Of a DNA stretch of 64,000 nucleotides, positions 11,239 to 21,419 are shown in pieces (positions within the stretch are counted from its first letter, which is position 1; the number at the start of each line of letters is the position of its first letter). Source of the DNA: Peristeroidobacter agariperforans (GTDB lineage Bacteria; Pseudomonadota; Gammaproteobacteria; Steroidobacterales; Steroidobacteraceae); contig NZ_RYFW01000001.1 in assembly GCF_004138335.1 (NCBI RefSeq), positions 1,984,001 through 2,048,000 of the forward strand, given 5' to 3'. Made by a program: the position numbers and the translations under genes. The notes beneath the pieces were generated by a model. It had not been told where the DNA came from, did not search any database, and saw only the letters and a program-made list of their open reading frames with translations.

Positions 11239-12504
11239 ATGCATCCACAAGAGCAGCCGGCTTCGGTCGCAGCTGTCGATGACAAACCGCGCGTAGGTTG
11301 GGGATTCATCACGCTCCACGCGCTGGCCTACACAGGCACGTGGCTGGCGTTGCTCACGCCGGTGCTCGTGACCATTGCTTTGCGCGTTCGGAATCTCGCG
11401 CCCGAAACTGCAGCCTCGAGTTTGTCGCTGGTGCTGGGGCTCGGCGCGTTCTTCGCGCTCGTCGGCAATCCTTTGTTCGGTCGATTGAGCGATCGAACCA
11501 CCTCGCGCTTCGGCATGCGCAGGCCCTGGCTGATCGGCGGAGTCATCTGCGGTGCGCTGGCGTTGTTGATGATCGCAACGGCCACCAGCATCGCGATGGT
11601 GCTCATCGGTTGGTGCCTGGCTCAGCTCGCGTTCAATGCGGTGTTGGCGGCCATCATTGCCGTCTTGCCCGACCAGGTTCCCGTGGAACAGCGCGGCACT
11701 GTTGCCGGTGTGATGGGCGTTTGTTTGCCGCTGGGGCAGGTGAGTGGCACGTATCTGGTGCAGTCGGTCGCCACGTCGACGTTGCACACGTTCATGGTGC
11801 CTGCGGCGATCTGTGTGGCGGTCGTGTTGTTGTTTGCTGTGATGTTGCCCGATCGACGCCTCGCGCCAGGCCAGGTTCCGCCGCTGGGCTGGCGCGATGT
11901 GATAGCAATCTATTGGGTCAATCCGCGGCAGTATCCGGACTTCGGCTGGACCTGGCTGAGTCGTTTGTTACTCGTGCTCGGCACGGCGTTCCTGAATACC
12001 TATCAACCGTTCTATCTGATCGACAAGCTCGGTCACGCCGAGGTGGAAATTCCCACACTCATTTTCCAGGGCATCCTGGTGCAGACCGTCGCCATCATCG
12101 CGGTGAGCATCCTCGGTGGGCGGCTATCGGATGCGATCGGCCGTCGCAAGATTTTTGTGGTGATCGGCGGTGCGGTCTATGCGATCGGCTTGTGGGTCAT
12201 CGCCGCCGCGCCAGACTATCCAACCTTCCTCCTCGGCATGACCATCACCGGCATCGGTCATGGTGTTTACTTCGCGGTCGATCTGGCGCTCGTGACCGAT
12301 GTTCTGCCGAACCGATGGCGCGATGCCGCCAAGGATCTCGGCATCTTCAACGTTGCGAATGCTTTGCCTCAAGCCATCGCACCCGCCGTAGCGCCGGTGA
12401 TCCTCGCGCTCACCGGTGGCAATTACACGTGGCTGTTCGCGATTGCAGGCTCGATCGCGCTGATGGCGTCGGTGACCATTCTGCCTGTGAAGAGCGTGCG
12501 CTAG
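11239..12504 (+). CDS. MFS transporter, sugar/drug type
   Basis: 421 aa MFS protein with motif A NPLFGRLSDRTTSRFGMRRP in the N half and a second copy GGRLSDAIGRRKIFVV in the C half. The ATG at 11239 is chosen because the frame upstream of it (back to 11047) is rich in Arg, Cys and Ser and shows no transporter features. Starting there places about 20 residues before TM1 (GWGFITLHALAYTGTWLALL). It is divergent from the spinster-like carrier, with 205 bases between the starts in which I recognise no clear operator. The substrate is unknown. Confidence 0.82.
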   Translation: MHPQEQPASVAAVDDKPRVGWGFITLHALAYTGTWLALLTPVLVTIALRVRNLAPETAASSLSLVLGLGAFFALVGNPLFGRLSDRTTSRFGMRRPWLIGGVICGALALLMIATATSIAMVLIGWCLAQLAFNAVLAAIIAVLPDQVPVEQRGTVAGVMGVCLPLGQVSGTYLVQSVATSTLHTFMVPAAICVAVVLLFAVMLPDRRLAPGQVPPLGWRDVIAIYWVNPRQYPDFGWTWLSRLLLVLGTAFLNTYQPFYLIDKLGHAEVEIPTLIFQGILVQTVAIIAVSILGGRLSDAIGRRKIFVVIGGAVYAIGLWVIAAAPDYPTFLLGMTITGIGHGVYFAVDLALVTDVLPNRWRDAAKDLGIFNVANALPQAIAPAVAPVILALTGGNYTWLFAIAGSIALMASVTILPVKSVR

Positions 12505-12631
12505 CGGGCTTGGCTTAAACGCACAATCCCTCGCTACTCCCCTCCAGCTGTACAGCCCTGGGCCCGCAAGTTGCCAGGCACCAGCATGGATAGCTTTCCC
12601 TCGCGCACAGTTTTCTCGCAAGAATGAACCC

Positions 12632-13495
12632 CTACCGCAGCACCTTGATCAGCGCCGCGTGCTCCTCAGCCCCGTAACCCGCGTCGATCGCGCGTCGGAA
12701 CAAGCTAGCCGCGAACGTCGGAAACTCATCGTTGATGCCGCTTTCGCGCGCGTGTTGCACTAGCCGGATGATGTCTGTGCCGGCCGTCTTGATCGTGCTC
12801 TCCGGGTCGGCGTAGTCGTCGTGCTCGATGACTTCACTCAAGTGTTTCGCCTCAATGCCCAGTAGCGGCGTCAGATCCGCCAGCATCGATCCGAAGGCTG
12901 TCACGCGCACTCCTTCCACCTCGCAAACACGGGCGCCTTGGCACAAACCAATCCAGTGTCCAGCGAGATACGAGAGCATGGCCGAGAACAGCGCGGCCGA
13001 CTTACCGGCGTCATCGCTCAAGAAACTGAGATTGCCCGCAAGCTTCCTCAACTGCGACTCATGTTCCTGATAAACCCCTTCGCGACCGGAAACCACGATC
13101 GACGCCTCGGATGTGCCAATCTGTCTCGGCCACGCGAGGATGGCGCCATCAAGATACTGCGCAGCGCGCGCATGCATCCAACTTTCTAGATCCCGCGCTT
13201 CCCGCGGCGTGCCAGTACTGAGTTGCACGATCGCTCGATCTGAAAGTGCCGCATCGACTCCCGCTGATGCGAGAACCTCGCACGTGGCCGGGTAGTCCGA
13301 CAGGCAGATGACCGTGATGGGACTGGCGCGTACGGCTTCCGCAACATTCGCGGCGAGCGAGGCACCTGCCCGGATCAGTGGCTCTGCTTTGGCGGCCGAA
13401 CGATTCCAAACCGTCACTCGATCGCCACATTTCACAAAGGCACGCGCCAGCGCCGCGCCCATTTCGCCCAAACCGATGACCGTGACTGAACTCAT
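12632..13495 (-). CDS. NAD(P)-dependent oxidoreductase, 6-PGDH/imine-reductase-like
   Basis: 287 aa dehydrogenase with an N-terminal Rossmann fold (VTVIGLGEMGAALARAF, then WNRSAAKAEPL). This is followed by LSTGTPREARDLESWMHARA and an all-helical C-terminal domain. The family joins 3-hydroxyisobutyrate dehydrogenases with imine reductases, and the phrase YLDGAILAWPRQIGTSEASI is closer to the imine-reductase group. The ATG at 13495 is preferred because the frame upstream (to 13573) adds an unrelated 26 residues before the Rossmann strand. It is divergent from an HxlR regulator, with a strong dyad between them, so redox- or ligand-controlled expression is likely. The substrate is not known. Confidence 0.85.
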   Translation of the reverse strand: MSSVTVIGLGEMGAALARAFVKCGDRVTVWNRSAAKAEPLIRAGASLAANVAEAVRASPITVICLSDYPATCEVLASAGVDAALSDRAIVQLSTGTPREARDLESWMHARAAQYLDGAILAWPRQIGTSEASIVVSGREGVYQEHESQLRKLAGNLSFLSDDAGKSAALFSAMLSYLAGHWIGLCQGARVCEVEGVRVTAFGSMLADLTPLLGIEAKHLSEVIEHDDYADPESTIKTAGTDIIRLVQHARESGINDEFPTFAASLFRRAIDAGYGAEEHAALIKVLR

Positions 13496-13575
13496 GTGTA
13501 AGCTGCTCCGGAGATCCATGTACGCGATGGCATCACGAGGTGCGCAGTGTGGCGCGAGCGAATTTATTATCAATT

Positions 13576-13593
13576 ACTTACGTCTTCGTAAGT
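13576..13593. promoter_or_regulatory. Perfect dyad, likely HxlR operator
   Basis: 7-base arms ACTTACG and CGTAAGT flank TCTT, a perfect inverted repeat between the divergent reductase (start 13495) and the HxlR gene (ATG 13610). ACTTAC-type dyads are typical HxlR targets. The right arm touches a potential GTG start at 13592, which supports ATG 13610 as the real start and also suggests autoregulation. Confidence 0.65.
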
Positions 13594-13609
13594 GCGCGAG
13601 TCCGAGGCC

Positions 13610-13966
13610 ATGACGAACACCACCAACGCCGATGAGCAGCAAGCTTGCGGACTGACTGCGGCCTTGAATGTGATCAGCGGCAAATGGAAGCCGACCATCA
13701 TCTGGCACTTGCATGCGCAACCGCTGCGATTCGGCGAGCTGCGGCGGCGTTTGCCTGGAATCAGCGAAAAGATCCTGTCGGAGCAGCTCAAAGAACTGCA
13801 ACTGAGCGGCATCGTGCGCCGTGAAGAGTTCGATGAGGCTCGGTTACGAGTCGAATATTCTTTGACGCCGCCTGGGGCGCTGCTCAATCGAGCGGTGCAC
13901 GCGTTGGCGGAATGGGGCTCAGCTTACGGCAACCCGCCCGCGCCGAACGTGATGTGCCAGCGCTGA
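13610..13966 (+). CDS. HxlR-family winged-helix regulator
   Basis: 118 aa MarR/HxlR-like regulator. Family features run through the whole protein: CGLTAALNVISGKWKPTIIW, LRFGELRRRLPGISEKILS, QLKELQLSGIVRREEF and VEYSLTPPGALL. Cys is present near the N-terminus (position 12, EQQACG) as in thiol-sensing members, though many HxlR proteins carry a Cys there without a proven role. An in-frame GTG at 13592 would add 6 residues but overlaps the operator-like dyad. The divergent reductase is its probable target. Confidence 0.88.
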   Translation: MTNTTNADEQQACGLTAALNVISGKWKPTIIWHLHAQPLRFGELRRRLPGISEKILSEQLKELQLSGIVRREEFDEARLRVEYSLTPPGALLNRAVHALAEWGSAYGNPPAPNVMCQR

Positions 13967-14071
13967 GCGTCGCCCGGTAGCGATACTGAATATCTTTCGA
14001 TCATCAAGACGCGCTATGCCGTTTCGGGTCGAAAGCTGCCCTTAGTGGACGCAGGAAGTTCCGCAGAAGCG

Positions 14072-14115
14072 CTAAACGTTGTTTCTGCAGTGTCGATCCG
14101 AGTCCGCGTGAGGTA
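14072..14115. repeat. Cassette repeat copy A (44 bases)
   Basis: First of four copies of a dispersed repeat confined to 14.0-17.0 kb. It begins CTAAACGTTG and ends GCGTGAGGTA. 24 of 44 columns are identical in all four copies. It lies 46 bases downstream of the 3' end of the NADAR gene. Arms GCAGAA (14063-14068) and TTCTGC (14083-14088) pair around the left part. Confidence 0.7.
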
Positions 14116-14161
14116 GGACGGCAGGCGCTGCCGGCAACACCAGGGCGGGTGTGCTTGATGC

Positions 14162-14719
14162 CTACCGCAACTTCTCAATAGCGTCGCGTGCCTGCATGAG
14201 TGCAAAGTCCAGTAGATTGAGGCCGCGCCACTGGTTCGGATTGTTTACTCTCTCATCGCCCTGGGCGAGACCTATGCCCCAGATCCTATCCATCGGACTT
14301 GCCTCGACTAGGATGCGTGAGCCGGTTTGCTGAAGGAAATGTCTCAGTTCATGGTTCTGCGCAAACTTCGCCACGTTGGCTCGGACTACGATGGAGAACC
14401 GGTTTTCTACCCAGGTGGCCTCATTGAATCCTCGCACTTGGCGTCCGAGTGCCTTGGCGGTACCGGGACTCGCCGCCTGAAGCACTTGCATTCTTGTCTC
14501 GTGATCGCCGAATAGGGCGGCTTTCTCCGCCATCATGAAGTGCTCTGCTGTTGGGTACCGTTGGCCATCAACAGCGAACGGGGCGCTATACCACTGACTG
14601 AAGCAGGAAGCGGTCACGCCGCTCTTCGTGCGTTGATGCCCCCAGAAAAAGACATACTTCAGCTTTTCTCTCGCGTTGAAGCGAGCACGAAGATCTTCGA
14701 GGAATAGCTTGTCGCGCAT
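14162..14719 (-). CDS. NADAR family protein
   Basis: 185 aa NADAR (NAD and ADP-ribose related) domain protein. The family includes riboflavin-pathway N-glycosidases (YbiA) and ADP-ribosyl-guanosine hydrolases linked to phage defence. Diagnostic parts are FFWGHQ, SCFSQWYSAPFAVDGQRYPT, AEHFMMAEKAALFGD, then LGRQVRGFNEATWVENR, and near the C-end PMDRIWGIGLAQGDERVNNP. ATG 14719 is preferred to the GTG at 14731. It has no obvious operon partner. Repeat copy A follows its 3' end. A role in nucleotide-sugar clearance or defence is possible but not shown. Confidence 0.88.
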   Translation of the reverse strand: MRDKLFLEDLRARFNAREKLKYVFFWGHQRTKSGVTASCFSQWYSAPFAVDGQRYPTAEHFMMAEKAALFGDHETRMQVLQAASPGTAKALGRQVRGFNEATWVENRFSIVVRANVAKFAQNHELRHFLQQTGSRILVEASPMDRIWGIGLAQGDERVNNPNQWRGLNLLDFALMQARDAIEKLR

Positions 14720-14810
14720 CGGTATTCTCACAGTACCAGATGTGTCGGCATGGCCCGATGTTCATAGATCTGCCTGCTGGCAGTTATCACCGCGCGTCGG
14801 CGGCTGAGGC

Positions 14811-15383
14811 ATGCTTTCCTTCCTGGCTGCCACTGCAATCCTGAGCAGCGTCCCGGCTTGTCAGGAGCTTCATCCGCAGGCGACCCCTACTGCGGATGGG
14901 GCGACGTACGCTTTGGCGGAAGATGTGCGGCTGGCCTTTGGACGGGATGAGTCGCTCGACACGCAGTCGGACTATGGTCAACGAGCGATGCTATACACTT
15001 CCGAGCGCGGCGTAGCCCGGCGGACGTATTACTCTTCGGGGGCCGAAGATGGCTCCGCCATGACGCCTACCTTTTTCGGTGATTGTGGCCGGCACGAACT
15101 GCTGATTCTTGCCGACGTCGGCAATGAGTCCGCCTGGGGATTCCGAGTGTTCGCCTACGACGGCAAGGTATTGCGCGATCTGGGTGAGATTCCGATCGCA
15201 GTATGGGGCGATGGCAATATGGAATCCGCGATTCCGTTCGTGAAACTGGCTCCGCACGATGAAGTGATCGATCTCACGTTCACTACGGATGTAATCAAGG
15301 ACCCTGAGTCGCGGTCCCAGCAGCCGCTCGCCGCGAAGGATGCTCGCTATCAAATAGGGTTGACGTCGATACGAGCAAAGTAG
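14811..15383 (+). CDS. Secreted or lipoprotein-like protein of unknown function
   Basis: 190 aa. The N-terminus is a short hydrophobic stretch (LSFLAATAILSSVPAC) that could be a lipoprotein signal, although Pro at -2 is unusual for a lipobox. The rest is hydrophilic and contains TYALAEDVRLAFGRDESLD, then an even alpha/beta pattern with SAWGFRVFAYDGKVLRDL. I recognise no family. It is divergent from the NADAR gene (92 bases between starts) and lies between repeat copies A and B, so it travels in the same putative cassette. No promoter is evident. Confidence 0.6.
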   Translation: MLSFLAATAILSSVPACQELHPQATPTADGATYALAEDVRLAFGRDESLDTQSDYGQRAMLYTSERGVARRTYYSSGAEDGSAMTPTFFGDCGRHELLILADVGNESAWGFRVFAYDGKVLRDLGEIPIAVWGDGNMESAIPFVKLAPHDEVIDLTFTTDVIKDPESRSQQPLAAKDARYQIGLTSIRAK

Positions 15384-15510
15384 CGGCGAACTGGTGCCGA
15401 AATCGTGCCGCGCGTCACCATTGGGTCGAATCCTGCGGCTGAGCGCGGCTTAATCCAGCAGACCTCTGCAGCACTCACTGGCCCGCAGTGGAATAGGTCG
15501 CGGCGAAGCG

Positions 15511-15554
15511 CTACACGTTGTTCCGGCTGTCCTCGTCCGAGTTCGGGTGCGATG
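15511..15554. repeat. Cassette repeat copy B (44 bases)
   Basis: Second copy. It begins CTACACGTTG and ends GTTCGGGTGCGATG. Its first three bases, read on the minus strand, are the TAG stop codon of the small gene 15511-15780, so that reading frame runs into the repeat and ends at its last base. Confidence 0.7.
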
Positions 15555-15780
15555 AGCTGGCTCCCAGTATCGGGAGTTTGATCGATCCGTCGGCAGCAAT
15601 CGTGAAGCTGACGACAATGCTTCCAGTCCAGTAGAGGTCATCACGGCGGAAGGTGCGCGGCTCGCTGGGTTGTGCTGCCGGCATGGGGTCGCAGGGTGGC
15701 AGGCTCTCAGCCCCACCGGCAGCGTACACGCATGTCAGTAGTGCCGAGGCTGCAATGAGAGTTGTCGTTCGCATGTCCAT
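15511..15780 (-). CDS. Small exported protein with a short TonB-C-like segment
   Basis: 89 aa. A signal peptide covers about residues 1-24 (TLIAASALLTCVYAAGGA). The mature part has DLYWTGSIVVSFTIAADGSI, which resembles the start of a TonB C-terminal domain (usual pattern G-x-V-x-V-x-F-x-I-x-x-DG). The rest of that domain is missing and the protein ends in a low-complexity tail (SSSHPNSDEDSRNNV) encoded by repeat B. It may be a truncated energy-transducer-like protein. ATG 15774 is an alternative start. No partner genes are nearby. Confidence 0.5.
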   Translation of the reverse strand: MDMRTTTLIAASALLTCVYAAGGAESLPPCDPMPAAQPSEPRTFRRDDLYWTGSIVVSFTIAADGSIKLPILGASSSHPNSDEDSRNNV

Positions 15781-15866
15781 TTTCGCGAATCAGGTTCAAA
15801 CTGCTGCGAGCTTAGCAGGCCATCACTCGAGTATGCCCTGAGCATGCAGGCAATCTCGCAGAACGG

Positions 15867-15910
15867 CTACACGACGTTCCTGCAATCCCTATTCGGATTC
15901 GGGTGAGATA
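15867..15910. repeat. Cassette repeat copy C (44 bases)
   Basis: Third copy. It begins CTACACGACG and ends GGGTGAGATA. It sits 34 bases upstream of the beta-lactamase start. Arms GCAGAACG (15858-15865) and CGTTCCTGC (15875-15883) pair with one bulged base. Confidence 0.7.
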
Positions 15911-15944
15911 GAGCGCAGGCACGAATCACCAGGAGCAGCTATTC

Positions 15945-16835
15945 GTGAGTCAACCGGAGTTTCCATTATCGAGCCGACGATGGTTCATCGGCGCAGCGTC
16001 AGTTGCGCTATACGGCGCTGCGGGTGCGGCGCGCGAGCAGCAGGGCATCGTCGAGCGTCTGACTGCAATCCGTTCGCGCATCGGCGGCCGGCTCGGCGCG
16101 TATGTGCTCGATACCCACACCGGCCGGCGGTTCGGCCTCGACTACGACGAAAGATTCGCCATGGCCTCGACCTTCAAGTGGCTGCTGGCCGCGGCAGTCC
16201 TGGCGAAGGTCGAGCGCGCGGAGCTGCGCCTCGAACAGAGGGTCTCCTTTGCGGAGAAAGATCTTCTGGCGCATGCTCCGGTCACATCGAAGCATCTCAG
16301 GCAAAGTTCGCTGACGTTGCGCGAGCTGTGTGCCGCTGTCGTCGAGGTCAGCGACAATACTGCCGCCAATCTGCTGTTGCGGCTCATCGAAGGCCCGGAA
16401 GGCCTCACAAAGTTCGCGCGCGCGTCGGGTGATGAAATGACGCGGCTGGATCGCACGGAACTGGCGCTGAATTCCAACTTGCCGGGAGACCCGCGCGACA
16501 CTACGACACCGCGGGCGATGGTCGGTAGCATGGAGCGGGTGCTTCTGGGAACCGTTCTCTCCGAGCCTTCGCGCCAGATACTCATTCAGTGGATGATCAA
16601 TTCGTCGACGGGTCTGCAGCGTATTCGTGCAGGATTGCCGGCGCACTGGAAGGTAGGGGACAAGACGGGCACGGGCGCCAGCGGTGCCGTCAATGACCTA
16701 GCGATGGTCTGGCCGCCTGGTCGCAAGCCGATACTGATGGCGGTGTATATGTCCGAGTCGACGGAAACGGTCGAAACGCTGAGTGCCGCGCATGCGCAGG
16801 TCGCAGCGGAGGTGGTTCGCGAGCTGGCCGCGTAG
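15945..16835 (+). CDS. bla: Class A beta-lactamase, Tat-exported
   Basis: 296 aa serine beta-lactamase hydrolysing beta-lactams in the periplasm. All class A motifs are present with normal spacing: S75-T-F-K78 (Ambler S70/K73), S136-D-N (130-132), E172-L-A-L-N (E166 to N170) and K240-T-G (234-236). The N-terminus has a twin-arginine signal (SSRRWFIG, then ASVALYGAAGAA), so it is folded before export. The start is GTG 15945 with AGGAG about 10 bases upstream. No ampR-type LysR regulator is adjacent. It sits between repeat copies C and D in the cassette-like block, on the strand opposite to the TonB-C-like gene. The spectrum cannot be predicted. Confidence 0.95.
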   Translation: MSQPEFPLSSRRWFIGAASVALYGAAGAAREQQGIVERLTAIRSRIGGRLGAYVLDTHTGRRFGLDYDERFAMASTFKWLLAAAVLAKVERAELRLEQRVSFAEKDLLAHAPVTSKHLRQSSLTLRELCAAVVEVSDNTAANLLLRLIEGPEGLTKFARASGDEMTRLDRTELALNSNLPGDPRDTTTPRAMVGSMERVLLGTVLSEPSRQILIQWMINSSTGLQRIRAGLPAHWKVGDKTGTGASGAVNDLAMVWPPGRKPILMAVYMSESTETVETLSAAHAQVAAEVVRELAA

Positions 16836-16896
16836 TGGTAACGGCGCGGTCGAGTTGCGGTGGCGGGGAAGTTTGTCAGAACGCATCGGTGAGCCG

Positions 16897-16940
16897 CTAC
16901 ACGCTGTTCCTGCAGTCTCGGTGCGGGTACGCGTGCGATA
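16897..16940. repeat. Cassette repeat copy D (44 bases)
   Basis: Fourth copy. It begins CTACACGCTG and ends GCGTGCGATA. It lies 61 bases downstream of the beta-lactamase stop. Arms CAGAAC (16878-16883) and GTTCCTG (16906-16912) pair with one bulged base, across a longer loop than in copy C. Confidence 0.7.
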
Positions 16941-17141
16941 ACCGCGAGACGACCCTTTTCGGACACGACCAGCCTTTGGCAGGCACAACCGAACATGGGA
17001 TCTCAGCGTCAATGAGGTCAAGGGCTCGCCGGTTGGGCGGTTGCGCCTGAGATCGAGCCCGTGGACGAGCTGCCATTGAAACCTTTCGAGCGGGTTGCGC
17101 ATCCAAAAACGATAAGTCCGAACCGCCGAGTCGGAACACAT
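16941..17141 (-). pseudogene. Possible remnant of a cassette reading frame
   Basis: In the otherwise gene-free 350 bases between bla and the peptidase, the minus strand is open from ATG 17141 and reads VRTYRFWMRNPLERFQWQL and so on. This looks like the 'RNPLHNFTF' motif of short hypothetical proteins often found in mobile arrays. The frame then continues through repeat D without its own stop and overlaps bla, so the 3' boundary given is only the edge of repeat D. It could be a decayed gene or chance. Confidence 0.22.
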
Positions 17142-17186
17142 GTCTTTCGACCGCTCGGGCGAGCACCCGTCGAAGCTGAACACTGG

Positions 17187-18410
17187 ATGTGCTTTGTGAA
17201 GAAACTGTTCTGCATCCTGCTCCTTGCTGCCAACTTTGCTCATGGTGAAGCTTCGCTTCCGGATTTGACTGCCGAACAGTGGCGACAGGATCTCGAGTTC
17301 TTCGCCAACGAGATCACGACGAAACACCGGGATCCTTTTCACTTCACCAGCAAGACCGAATTCGACCTGGCGGTGTCCGGCCTGCGCCAGCGGATCCCCT
17401 CGATGAAAGACTACGAAGTTGTCGTTGGCTTGCAGCACCTGGCGGCCCTCATTGGCGACGGGCATTCGTTTCTGGACACATCAGGCTTGTATGAGAGGTT
17501 TCCGCTGGAGGCCTTCTGGTTTGGCAACGATCTGAGGGTAATCCGTGCGGCTCCTGAATACCGGGAAGCACTGGGATCCAGGATTGTCTCGATCGGATCC
17601 GTATCCATTGAGGAAGTGCAGAAGAGGATTCAACAGTTCGTTCCGCAAGCTGAGAACCAGTGGTACGTGCTGAACAGCAGCGCACAGCAGCTCATGAACG
17701 TCGAGCCGCTGGCCGCCTTGGGCGTCCTTCCGGGTCCGGGTTCCGCTGATTTCACCTTCGAAGATGATTCGGGTCGTCGCTTCACGCTGCGGATTCGGCC
17801 AGTCCCTGCAGGAGCCAGCAAGTCAGGGGAGGTCGCTATCGAACCCGTGCCATTGCCCTTTCAGCACCCGGAGGAAGCGCTTTGGTTTACGTACCTGGCT
17901 GACTCCAAAACGGTTTATGTGAATTTCCGCTCGTACCGAGACCTGGAGACGCAGTCCGCACGGCTTTGGGAATACGTCGGCAGGCATCCGGTAAGACGCC
18001 TGATAGTCGATATGCGCTGGAACCAAGGTGGAAACTTCACCAAGGGGAGGGAATATCTCATCTACAAGCTGATATTCATGCCCGCCTTAAACCGTGCCGG
18101 ACATCTTTTCGTGATTACGGGCCGCGGCGCATTTTCAGCTGGCATGACCAACATCACCGATTTTCGCAGAGAGACGGAAGCAATCCTGGTCGGCGAGCCC
18201 ACGGGTGCGCGCCCCAACGGATACCAGGAGAACCATTTGTTTACGCTTCCACTCTCAAAGCTGCGTGTCTCTTGTTCGATGCTCAGGTACAGATTTCAGC
18301 CGGACTCAGAGACTGACGCTGTATTCCCCGATCAGCGAATCGACCCTGATTGGCCGTTGTTCAGGGCGGGAAAAGATGCAGCACTGCAGTGGATTTTGGC
18401 AAGGCCATAG
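17187..18410 (+). CDS. S41-family (tail-specific type) peptidase, exported
   Basis: 407 aa from ATG 17187 (GTG 17196 is equally possible). A signal peptide is seen (VKKLFCILLLAANFAHG, cleavage near GEA). The body has an S41 N-terminal helical part (LEFFANEITTKHRDPFHF) and a stretch in the position of a PDZ-like region. The C-terminal core has LIVDMRWNQGGNF and ITGRGAFSAGMTNITDF, in which the Ser of FSAG is the expected nucleophile. It also has EPTGARPNGYQENHLFTLP. Related exported S41 enzymes often act on peptides of unknown identity. It follows repeat D; no repeat copy was found after its stop. Confidence 0.85.
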   Translation: MCFVKKLFCILLLAANFAHGEASLPDLTAEQWRQDLEFFANEITTKHRDPFHFTSKTEFDLAVSGLRQRIPSMKDYEVVVGLQHLAALIGDGHSFLDTSGLYERFPLEAFWFGNDLRVIRAAPEYREALGSRIVSIGSVSIEEVQKRIQQFVPQAENQWYVLNSSAQQLMNVEPLAALGVLPGPGSADFTFEDDSGRRFTLRIRPVPAGASKSGEVAIEPVPLPFQHPEEALWFTYLADSKTVYVNFRSYRDLETQSARLWEYVGRHPVRRLIVDMRWNQGGNFTKGREYLIYKLIFMPALNRAGHLFVITGRGAFSAGMTNITDFRRETEAILVGEPTGARPNGYQENHLFTLPLSKLRVSCSMLRYRFQPDSETDAVFPDQRIDPDWPLFRAGKDAALQWILARP

Positions 18411-18704
18411 CTAACCATTGTGCCGCCCATAGCCGACATTCGTGATTGACCGGTACGGGTCGCAACCTGCCGCCCGCAGCGCTCCCGAGCGCTCTGTAGC
18501 TTTCCGTGAATGGAGGTAATTCCGAAGAAGGGATTTGAACCTGCAACCATCTCGCTGAACAGATGAGCTGGCTAGCGCAGCGTCGCAGTCTATCGAAAGC
18601 CAGGGCGGTTCTGACATGCATCTCGGACGATCGTCGGCATCCGCACGCGTTTGAAGCTCGTCCGGGGTTGCTGATGTGCTGATCGCCGCAGCTCGGTCGA
18701 TAGC
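18411..18704. other. Gene-free stretch at the right edge of the accessory block, with a tRNA-like fragment
   Basis: 294 bases between two convergent genes. The minus strand at 18541-18531 reads GGTTCAAATCC, a canonical T-loop core, and upstream of it at 18571-18551 there is a D-arm-like stretch (GCTCATCTGTTCAGCGAG). No anticodon arm or matching acceptor stem can be drawn, so this is not a tRNA gene. It could be the remnant of an att site or a chance match. Nothing else is recognisable. Confidence 0.3.
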
Positions 18705-21419
18705 TCACATCGCGATGGCACGTTTGGCGCGAATGGTTTGGGGATGATCCGGGCCGAGCTGGGACTCCAGAGTGACAACCGATTGTTCGATCAGCTGCCT
18801 CCCTTCTGCCTTTCCGGTGGCGACGTTTGCTTCACCCAGCCGGGCGCGGGCTTCGGCGAGTTCCCAGCTTTGTTCCCACATTACTTGCTCGCGAAGCTTC
18901 ACTGCTTCTTCGAGCAGCGGTGCAGCGTCGGCGGCGCGATGGTTTTGCAGCAGCAGTTCGCCTTGTGTGATCAGTGCCTGGCCTAACGCGAGTTGCGCGG
19001 CTGGGCCGCCGGCGCGCAATTTGGCGATGACATTCGCGAGTTCGGCGTTCGCTTTCTCGAAGGGCTGATGATTGGCGGTGAGCCTGGCTTTGGCCAGTCG
19101 TGCGCGTTGGGCAAAGAAGTGATCGTCACCAAACTGCTTGCGCGCCAGTGCGAAAGATTCGTCAGCGAGTTGAGCCGCGTGCTGGCTTCGCCCGGCCGCG
19201 GCATGCGCTTCGGCGAGAAACGTTTGGTTCTGCACGTGCAGACCGCTGCCTCGCGCAGTGAACTTCTCGGCCATGCGCGAAGCTTCTTCGAGAATGGGAA
19301 TGGCTAGATCCGGTCGGCCCAGCGCCGTCTGTAACGAGCCGTACTGGCCCATTGACGCAGCGACCGCCGCCGAATCGCCCGAGATCGCGCGCTGGCCTTC
19401 AAAAGCGTGTTTCAGCTCGCGCTCCGCATCGGCGATGCGGCCGACGCGATACGACAGCGTGCCGACGTTCGCGCGCATCACTAACGCGGGCACGTCTTCG
19501 CCAGAGCCCAGCGCGTCATGAATGGCCAGTGCCTTCCGGTAAGCTGCCGTCGCCTCCTGCAGCCGATTGGCATTCATCAGCGCGATGCCGAGCGAGTTGT
19601 AAAGGATCGCCGTCTCGCTGTGGTTCTCTCCGGAGAGCGCGATGCGCTCGGCAATCGCCTGCTCATTGGTCGCGATGGAGCCGGCCAAGTCGCCTTGCGC
19701 GCGGAGCACTCTCGCTTTGACTGTGACCCATTCGAGGTGCTGCTCGGCGTAGCGCTTGCGGTCGGTGTTCCAGAATTGTTCGGCCGGCCGCAGCAGTTCC
19801 TCGGCGCGTTGCAGGTTCCCTCGAGCGAGCTCGGCGTGCGCGAGCTTCTGCCTGACGAGCGCCACCGTCTCCGGGTTGGCTTCTGGGCCGGCTTGATTCA
19901 AATAGCCCTCGAGCAACGGCACCTGTCCGGCCACATCCTCGAGCGCGCCATACAAATCCGCGAGCGTCTCGACGACTTTGCCGGCGAGATAAGGGTCGTC
20001 GCGATATTCCTGCAAGACTCGCTCGGCGCTGCGATCGAGCATGGCCTTCGCAGTCGTTGGACCGGAGTCATCCGTTGTCACGGAGTTGCGGAACATGCGC
20101 GTCAGATACATGCGGACGGCTTCTTCCCGCGCCGCGGCTCTGCGAGCAATGTCGCGTTCGACGGCGGTGCGCGCCGCCTGTTCGCGAGCCTCGCGAGCTT
20201 GCCAGATTGCAACGCTGGCGCCACCGAGTAAAGCGATCAGGACGGCGGCCGCTGCGGCGGTCCCAACCCGGTTGCGACTAACGAACTTGCTGAAGCGATA
20301 CCACGCGCTATCGGGCCGCGCTTGAATGGGGCGGCCTTGCAGATGATGTTCGATATCCAGGGCGAAGGCGTCAGCGCTCGCATAACGCTGCGTGGGATCT
20401 TTCTTCAGCGCACGATTCAAAATTGCGTCGATGTCGCCGCGCAAACGCCGGCCGCGTTGCTGATCTTGAGTGGTCGTGCTCGCAAGCGACGCATCGATCT
20501 CGGTGATCGCGCGTTCGAGCTGCCCGCCGCCGGTGTGCTTCGGCGAGTAAGGCAGTGCGCCCGTCAGCAACTGGTAACTCACGACGCCCAGCGAATAGAC
20601 GTCGGTGGCCGTGCTGATCGGCTCGCCTTTGATCTGCTCCGGCGCGGCGTACTCAGGTGTGAAGGCACGCACGGCGAACTGCGTCTGCTCGCCGGGCTGA
20701 TTCTCCAGCAGCTTGGCAACGCCGAAGTCCAGCAATCGAACGGAGCCATCGGCCGTCACGAGAACATTGCTGGGCTTCAGGTCGCGATGGACGACGAGCC
20801 GCGCGTGCGCATGAGCGACGGCGCGCGCCACTTGCAGGACCAGCTGCAATATTTGTTCGACGGTCGGAGAGCGCTCCGAGCAGTAGCGGTCGATCGTCAC
20901 GCCTTCCACATATTCCATGGCCATGAATGGCCGGCCCAGATCGTCCACGCCGGCGTCGTACAGTCGCGCGATGTTGGGATGTTCGAGCGTGGCGAGAATG
21001 TCCCGCTCACGCGCCATGCGTTCGGCCAAGCCGCCGATCCAGGTGACGTGCGGCAGCTTGAGCGCAACGTTTCGTTTGAAGGTGCCGTCGTCGCGTTCGG
21101 CGAGCCACACGCTGCCCATGCCGCCGCGGCCCAGTTCCCGCACCAGACGGTATGGGCCGACGTGATTTCCGGGCGAAGGCGTGCTCAGCGGAGAGGTATT
21201 GATGCCGGTCAGGCTCGTGAACTGCGGCATGTCGCGCAGGAACTCATCGCTGTCGCGGGTCGCATGCTTCGCCAGTAACTCGCGAAGTGCGGGTTTGAGT
21301 CTTTCGTAGTCCCCGGACAGCGAGTCGAGCCAGGTGTCGCGTTCGGTCGGCGGCAGGTCGAGCGCCGTATCGAGCAGCTCGAACATCTGTTTCCAGTCTT
21401 CGGGCCCGATTCTTTGCAT
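18705..21419 (-). CDS. Membrane Ser/Thr protein kinase with C-terminal TPR repeats
   Basis: 904 aa Hanks-type kinase. Catalytic features are the glycine loop LGRGGMGSVWLAE (96-108), VALK (K121), HRDLKPSN (D213), DFG (231-233) and APEQ (259-262). One transmembrane helix lies near 387-405, followed by a coiled region. About 450 further residues hold tetratricopeptide repeats (for example NSLGIALMNANRLQEATAAY). The kinase is cytoplasmic and the TPR part probably lies on the other side of the membrane. It is encoded 4 bases after the ECF sigma gene, a common pairing in which the kinase acts with the sigma factor. The substrates are unknown. Confidence 0.93.
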   Translation of the reverse strand: MQRIGPEDWKQMFELLDTALDLPPTERDTWLDSLSGDYERLKPALRELLAKHATRDSDEFLRDMPQFTSLTGINTSPLSTPSPGNHVGPYRLVRELGRGGMGSVWLAERDDGTFKRNVALKLPHVTWIGGLAERMARERDILATLEHPNIARLYDAGVDDLGRPFMAMEYVEGVTIDRYCSERSPTVEQILQLVLQVARAVAHAHARLVVHRDLKPSNVLVTADGSVRLLDFGVAKLLENQPGEQTQFAVRAFTPEYAAPEQIKGEPISTATDVYSLGVVSYQLLTGALPYSPKHTGGGQLERAITEIDASLASTTTQDQQRGRRLRGDIDAILNRALKKDPTQRYASADAFALDIEHHLQGRPIQARPDSAWYRFSKFVSRNRVGTAAAAAVLIALLGGASVAIWQAREAREQAARTAVERDIARRAAAREEAVRMYLTRMFRNSVTTDDSGPTTAKAMLDRSAERVLQEYRDDPYLAGKVVETLADLYGALEDVAGQVPLLEGYLNQAGPEANPETVALVRQKLAHAELARGNLQRAEELLRPAEQFWNTDRKRYAEQHLEWVTVKARVLRAQGDLAGSIATNEQAIAERIALSGENHSETAILYNSLGIALMNANRLQEATAAYRKALAIHDALGSGEDVPALVMRANVGTLSYRVGRIADAERELKHAFEGQRAISGDSAAVAASMGQYGSLQTALGRPDLAIPILEEASRMAEKFTARGSGLHVQNQTFLAEAHAAAGRSQHAAQLADESFALARKQFGDDHFFAQRARLAKARLTANHQPFEKANAELANVIAKLRAGGPAAQLALGQALITQGELLLQNHRAADAAPLLEEAVKLREQVMWEQSWELAEARARLGEANVATGKAEGRQLIEQSVVTLESQLGPDHPQTIRAKRAIAM

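Follow-up and report, generated by a model that had tools for sequence, protein, structure and literature searches.

We analysed a 64,000-nucleotide stretch (the window) of the Peristeroidobacter agariperforans genome (G000; contig NZ_RYFW01000001.1, positions 1,984,001 to 2,048,000), in which a 44-nt repeat recurs between unrelated genes. We propose that each repeat is a hybrid attachment site belonging to a large serine recombinase (LSR) system whose target is the 3' end (T-loop) of tRNA-Pro genes, or fragments corresponding to the 3' half of tRNA-Pro, and that the cassettes were stacked by accretion, a reading to which we give a probability of about 0.7. Most likely, the array is to a serine recombinase what a cassette array is to an integron, and accretion built it up. 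Integrons are the textbook route to the stacking of single-gene cassettes; if our proposal is true, cassette collection arose in more than one recombinase family, programs seeking attC or IntI overlook such arrays, and the LSR concerned is a natural recombinase that targets a tRNA and may have a built-in switch of its C-terminus on integration. Below, G001 and G011 are the genomes of S. agaridevorans and S. gossypii, C stands for a contig and L for a fetched locus.

A repeat search of the window returned the four copies announced in an earlier note made from the sequence alone, which begin at 14072, 15511, 15867 and 16897, have a constant length of 44 nt and lie on the + strand. Recounting also reproduced the 24 invariant columns out of 44; ungapped pairwise identity is 30–34/44, and the next-best ungapped match to any of the four copies, on either strand of the window, reaches 26/44. 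The note had seen no other copy in the window, which is true of full copies only, since a fifth one, reduced to a half, closes the array (18480–18535 by the profile model R1, with a core reaching 18544). R1 was built from 18 copies, 14 from contig C11 and four from the window, and its matches in the window indicate a conserved unit longer than 44 nt, up to about 93–106 nt. The whole-genome profile search suggested in the note gave 23 matches at E<=1e-3, which are clustered and co-oriented: 16 on C11 and five in the window, all on the + strand, and two elsewhere on C9 (C9:2466990, + strand; C9:6394, - strand). As R1 was built from most of the copies in the genome, the E-values of these copies are partly circular; the first search, made with a single sequence before the model was built, had returned copies on C11, the most significant of them at 6e-12. 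The same one-strand clustering is found in relatives (7/7 sites on contig C3 of G003, 5/5 on contig C39 of G144). Sites occur in seven of the 14 genomes of the genus (R1, E<=1e-3) and, in an order-level sample filtered more strictly (E<=1e-5), in 11 of 296 genomes, which belong to a single family and to 4 of 68 genera. The intervals between sites, weak sites included, have a median of 956 bp and a range of 266–3010 bp (n=32, seven genomes).

A full site is composed of a left half and a constant right half, hereafter D (TTTGCGCTGTTCCTGCAG...). Left halves resembling TGGTCGGGGTGA are the complement of the tRNA-Pro 3' end, CCA included, and others (AGTGGATGCAGGCAATTCCGAAGAAG) have no recognisable tRNA-Pro 3' end. 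At seven array ends (Table 1) the left half is kept and D is replaced by the T-loop-like GATTTGAACCTGC or close variants; the exact pattern GGGATTTGAACCTGC is common to the terminal site of the window, the end of the C11 array and the end of a serine-recombinase gene on C12. In three of these ends, found in another genus (L137, L140 and L143), the right half is tRNA-Pro sequence down to the anticodon, followed by unrelated DNA; this sequence begins at the CCA end in two of them, and L143 has a different left half. In the genome of the window, a tRNA-Pro(tgg) gene lies at C11:54916, and its 3' end is the exact point at which synteny with S. agaridevorans begins. The three array ends of the other genus (L137:18742, L140:3005, L143:9692) and one LSR gene end (L112:8480) carry tRNA-Pro 3' halves that break off at the anticodon or close to it. 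In line with the Islander logic, our guess is that such truncated anchors might be displaced fragments that tyrosine-integrase islands left behind.

The recombinase is pointed to by the gene at C12:5223-7103, which encodes a 626-amino-acid LSR with Resolvase, Recombinase and zinc-ribbon domains, each scoring over the Pfam cut-off in this protein and in two relatives. This gene ends in TGGTCGGGGTGAAGGGATTTGA-ACCTGC, the exact core of the terminal half sites. Among the nine LSR gene ends inspected, this one included, six fall inside ARAGORN-predicted tRNA genes, either tRNA-Pro (S. agaridevorans LSR2, S. gossypii) or tRNA-Met (Povalibacter uvarum, one Steroidobacter metagenome-assembled genome and two others), two resemble the 3' half of tRNA-Pro (C12, L112) and one is of neither type (S. 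agaridevorans LSR1); the stop codon is the T-loop TGA in 6/9. By eye, a viral contig (L147) likewise has a tRNA-Met-like LSR end, whereas the end in L148 is not of this kind and L149 is cut. None of the LSR relatives in plasmids and phages (268 and 591 records) reaches 60% identity. S. agaridevorans also carries two consecutive LSR genes before a tRNA-Pro(tgg) (L082:11911-16263), the first of them 95% identical to the C12 LSR. The earlier note had described a cassette array without recognisable integrase: the unrelated genes between direct recombination repeats stand, while the recombinase family can now be named.

An intact element was found in S. gossypii, where 10,884 bp extend from a left site at G011:C31:10047 to a tRNA-Pro(cgg) at 20931 (L085:48-10931). 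Both flanks have counterparts at the uninterrupted tRNA-Pro locus in the P. agariperforans genome (C9:2517610), with 77% identity over 199 bp on the left and 87% over 429 bp on the right, the tRNA-Pro being 100% identical over 87 bp. The cargo of the element (a relaxase, a NikA-like protein, an IS3-type transposase and a large HD-CE/HATPase protein) suggests that it is integrative and mobilizable. Among the 29,949 51-mers of a 30-kb stretch, the one that best matches the 14 array D sequences is the left arm of the element (25.1/51), and none of 5,000 letter shuffles is as good; when the comparison was started one base off, the score fell to 11.5/51 (shuffles, 13.3) and 3,811/5,000 shuffles were at least as good. 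The array repeat is thus tied to the LSR independently of the R1 model. A left-type site with the same arm, apparently a remnant, is also present at G000:C11:69213 (L019). Neither R1 nor a motif search of C12:1-20000 revealed a D-type site that could mark the opposite end of the element with the C12 LSR.

Each cassette would then be a unit made of D, a gene and a tRNA-3'-end-like half, and integration at a terminal site (left half/T-loop) would convert it into left half/D while leaving a new left half/T-loop at the end. Because the terminal site would be converted in this way at each integration, single-gene units would stack in one orientation, with the newest adjoining the tRNA sequence. We infer that single cassettes are mobilised by the LSR in trans, presumably as circles; the sites may still be active, and tRNA-directed transcription may aid the expression of co-directional cassettes. 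Of 20 gene units hand-picked from three arrays, 15 are opposite to the site strand (C11 7/9, G003 6/6, window 2/5), which is the direction expected of a tRNA anchor. The units are bounded by direct-repeat att sites, as are those of tandem accretion or of cis-mobilizable LSR elements, and accretion at a T-loop by a serine recombinase, a mode known from Dehalococcoides, accounts for both the order and the orientation of the array.

D itself resembles a coding sequence. In one + frame, 63% of the single-difference codon pairs are synonymous (27 gap-free sites, those with indels or poor alignment being excluded; the pairs depend on one another), compared with 20% and 15% in the two remaining + frames, 20, 53 and 15% on the - strand and 28% (standard deviation 7) after shuffling of columns, where 0/500 shuffles reach 63%. 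Translation in this frame gives EALHAVPAVSVRVRVR-stop, in phase with the LSR frame across the common core. For the S. gossypii LSR, the predicted C-terminus is ...GRGDSICRVPAVPLDARLK-stop in the circular form and ...GRGDRI-stop in the integrated one. These readings suggest that attP is located within the LSR gene and that the C-terminus of the enzyme is exchanged on integration: with the site inside the recombinase gene, the circular (...ICAVPAVSVRVRVR-stop) and integrated (...GI-stop, from the tRNA T-loop) products would differ. Among the loci inspected, none has an intact LSR that ends in the longer C-terminus encoded by D, and the C11 remnant is out of frame with the local D. The fuller proposition, put forward tentatively and with odds somewhat below even, is a second integron-like platform of different chemistry, in which a serine recombinase anchored at tRNA-Pro captures and stacks single-gene cassettes, the newest of them adjoining a tRNA gene with strong transcription, and in which the encoded C-terminus differs between the circular and the integrated form.

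The behaviour of individual cassettes bears on the best-surviving alternative, according to which full-size LSR elements (integrative mobilizable elements of the kind of the 10.9-kb one in S. gossypii) inserted serially in tRNA-Pro and shrank by deletion, the single-gene units never having been mobile. Tandem accretion of whole islands is a known mode, as in Dehalococcoides (PMC3146451), an LSR remnant persists inside the C11 array and D has an LSR-like coding pattern. However, compact units recur in several species, in different neighbourhoods and with ends at sites. A Phd/PIN-like toxin-antitoxin cassette (C11:179951-180696) was found in six genomes including that of the window, with adjoining sites in four; identity to the other copies is 94% in G003, 92% in G001, 82% in G009, 76% in G004 and 73% in G011. 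In G003, G001 and G009 the homology begins right after D and ends before the next left half, and the neighbours differ; on the left side, G001 and G003 keep the D tail only. At the G004 and G011 places, the genome-wide R1 search, the only one made there, lists no site. Likewise, the S41-peptidase-like cassette of the window (17052–18545) shares 90% identity with S. agaridevorans G001:C13:67793-69261, in which TTCCTGCAG rather than AACCTGC comes after the same left half. The short and regular inter-site intervals also speak against shrunken islands, and we regard this alternative as unlikely, though it deserves more credit than those that follow.

Comparison of the loci supports the variability of the array: G003 and S. 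gossypii lack the variable region of Table 1, with gaps of 22 and 36 bp, respectively, and S. agaridevorans has 6.3 kb of other DNA instead, at the left junction of which a D-like tail was seen by eye (unscored by R1). Intact order in all relatives, which the earlier note had named as an argument against mobile cassettes, was therefore not what we found, gene order differing between them. The C11 array (172.6-182.7k) has a varied cargo, with a membrane protein, BlaI/BlaR1-type regulators, a PIN/PrlF-MazE pair, the Phd/PIN-like pair (its PIN partner recognised by eye), a HEAT protein, the LSR remnant and hypothetical proteins.

Several observations weigh against accretion by an LSR at tRNA-Pro. 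There is no LSR in or near the window array, and the sole one within an array (C11:178.3-179.3k) is a truncated remnant. The LSR domain PF07508 is present in 6/14 genomes of the genus, four of which also have sites; three of the seven genomes with sites gave no PF07508 match, and two of the six with the domain have no sites. Two of the terminal sites, that of the window and C11:182738, have a short or degenerate T-loop half, and ARAGORN predicts no tRNA in the window. The 142 bp to the right of the window terminal site are absent in relatives as well, so that the insertion does not end at this site, and relatives of the other genes of the array lie at L092, L093 and L028 without detectable sites. 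The gene orientation in the window is mixed, as the earlier note had pointed out, and a bare site has no need of the coding pattern of D.

tRNA T-loops are the usual targets of tyrosine integrases, and tyrosine recombinase genes adjoin the C12 site and lie near a related site on C9, which raises the question of whether such an enzyme, rather than the LSR, acts on the sites. However, the LSR gene end is itself the site in 8/9 LSRs inspected, and the four further S. gossypii element genes scanned (a part of its open reading frames) include no tyrosine recombinase, making this explanation improbable.

The sites had also been likened to those of integrons, which our scans do not bear out. Searching both strands for paired RYYYAAC/GTTRRRY cores gave none in window 12500–19000 and none in C11 172-183k, consistent with the absence of classical cores already reported in the note, whereas the positive control, the 7.3-kb stretch before an IntI gene (C12:280001-287300), gave six. 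The inverted repeat reported at the left end of some copies is not a conserved feature: folding of the 18 copies yields five weak consensus pairs and -2.34 kcal/mol. The attC reading was rejected on the basis of the controlled core scan and the lack of a shared fold. A degenerate integron array whose attC cores were lost (a cluster of attC sites lacking integron-integrases, CALIN) would share the cassette layout, in a genome with one complete and one broken IntI; with six paired cores by the C12 IntI against zero in the arrays, no conserved fold, and a best R1 match of E=0.33 in the C12 attC region, it is very improbable. The genome does carry an ordinary integron besides the repeat arrays (C12:280001-288313, L030), where at least six attC-like cores precede the complete IntI (C12:287372-288313; 489 bits for a TIGR02249 cut-off of 265, the only one above it). 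The broken IntI, in two frames with a TAG, is at C2:9750-10195 (L032), a locus that also has an sRNA-Xcc1 match (L032:8742-8829, 66.6 bits); no IntI adjoins the array.

Short, intergenic and multicopy sequences could also be dispersed repeats of the repetitive extragenic palindromic (REP) or miniature inverted-repeat transposable element type, without recombination function, but the copies are clustered on one strand rather than evenly scattered, which led us to discard REP-like dispersal, and the hybrid half sites at array ends and the match to the element arm leave this idea with hardly any credibility.

Taking the LSR reading forward, the system can be compared with known ones. In the staphylococcal cassette chromosome (SCC, SCCmec), Ccr large serine recombinases use an att site in the 3' end of a gene (rlmH) and build composite tandem islands. 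The likeness thus extends to the recombinase, the att position and the tandem islands, but the target of the C12 LSR is a tRNA instead of rlmH, and this protein scores under the Ccr cut-offs (CcrB 100.7/900, CcrC 58/900, CcrA 38.4/700 bits). As in integron arrays, the cassettes are single genes or toxin-antitoxin pairs of about 1 kb, in one orientation and added by a fixed anchor; unlike them, attC cores and fold are lacking, no IntI is near and the recombinase is of another family. In integration-dependent immunity of phages, integration swaps the 3' end of a repressor gene overlapping attP; a 3' end would be exchanged here too, with the C-terminus of the integrase changing instead of that of a repressor. 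The dif modules of Acinetobacter rely on Xer/dif sites and are on plasmids, unlike the LSR/tRNA sites described here, which are chromosomal. Both systems have small modules, each with one or a few genes, between short recombination sites, shuffled across replicons (PMC13141974). A further parallel is given by the Dehalococcoides ssrA islands, with a serine recombinase (DsiB) and units in tandem that lie between direct repeats on the downstream side of an RNA gene, 15 islands without integration module being possible cis-mobilizable elements (PMC3146451). Our arrays differ in their target (tRNA-Pro or its 3' half), in their units, mostly of about 1 kb with one gene or a toxin-antitoxin pair, and in the att site overlapping the 3' end of the recombinase gene. 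What is unusual here is the unit size, the gene-by-gene make-up, the reuse between species and the site inside the recombinase gene. A literature search at listing level, with preprints outside its scope, showed among the listed papers no description of single-gene serine-recombinase cassette arrays at tRNA-Pro.

Table 1. Parts of the window array and location of the T-loop-type half sites
Feature	Position	Strand	Basis
Site 1, tRNA-3'-end-like left half and right half D	14026–14118	+	R1, 71.4 bits; copy at 14072
Cassette interval, NADAR gene 14162–14731 (-) and 190-aa gene 14811–15383 (+)	14119–15463		Open reading frames
Site 2	15464–15559	+	R1, 62.6 bits
Short cassette interval, 89-aa open reading frame 15511–15780 (-) running into site 2	15560–15825	-	Open reading frame list
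Site 3	15826–15912	+	R1, 56.5 bits
Cassette interval, class A beta-lactamase gene 15945–16835	15913–16856	+	Pfam, NCBIfam
Site 4	16857–16946	+	R1, 60.6 bits
Cassette interval, S41-peptidase-like gene 17061–18410	16947–18479	+	Near-cut-off Pfam; homology in G001
Terminal half site, left half then T-loop-like GGGATTTGAACCTGC in place of D	18480–18544	+	R1, columns 3–58 only
Variable region overall	12507–18703		Comparison with three relatives
T-loop-type half sites	window; C11:182738; G003:C3:1310530; G001:C1:949069; L137:18742; L140:3005; L143:9692

Among the gene calls of the array, Pfam supports the NADAR gene (1.8e-52) and the class A beta-lactamase (1.8e-46; 321 bits for NCBIfam NF033103, cut-off 200). 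The S41 gene falls just under its cut-off (23.8 vs 24 bits), and the genes described in the note as lipoprotein-like (the 190-aa gene) and TonB-C-like (the 89-aa open reading frame) have no Pfam family at E<=0.001. An HxlR gene call is Pfam-supported. The window has no Rfam match at gathering score, and a lax threshold applied to 12000–20000 gave a single chance match (CRISPR-DR16, E=2.4). In the cassette of the 89-aa open reading frame, 90 bp (15578–15667) recur with 99% identity at G000:C10:1444511-1444600 (L028); at that locus, a tRNA-Pro-3'-like sequence lies 1.7 kb from the match, and there is no R1 site. Finally, the NADAR protein also matches the PADLOC candidate defence model PDC-M42C (4.5e-42), the sole match in a scan of 10 proteins.

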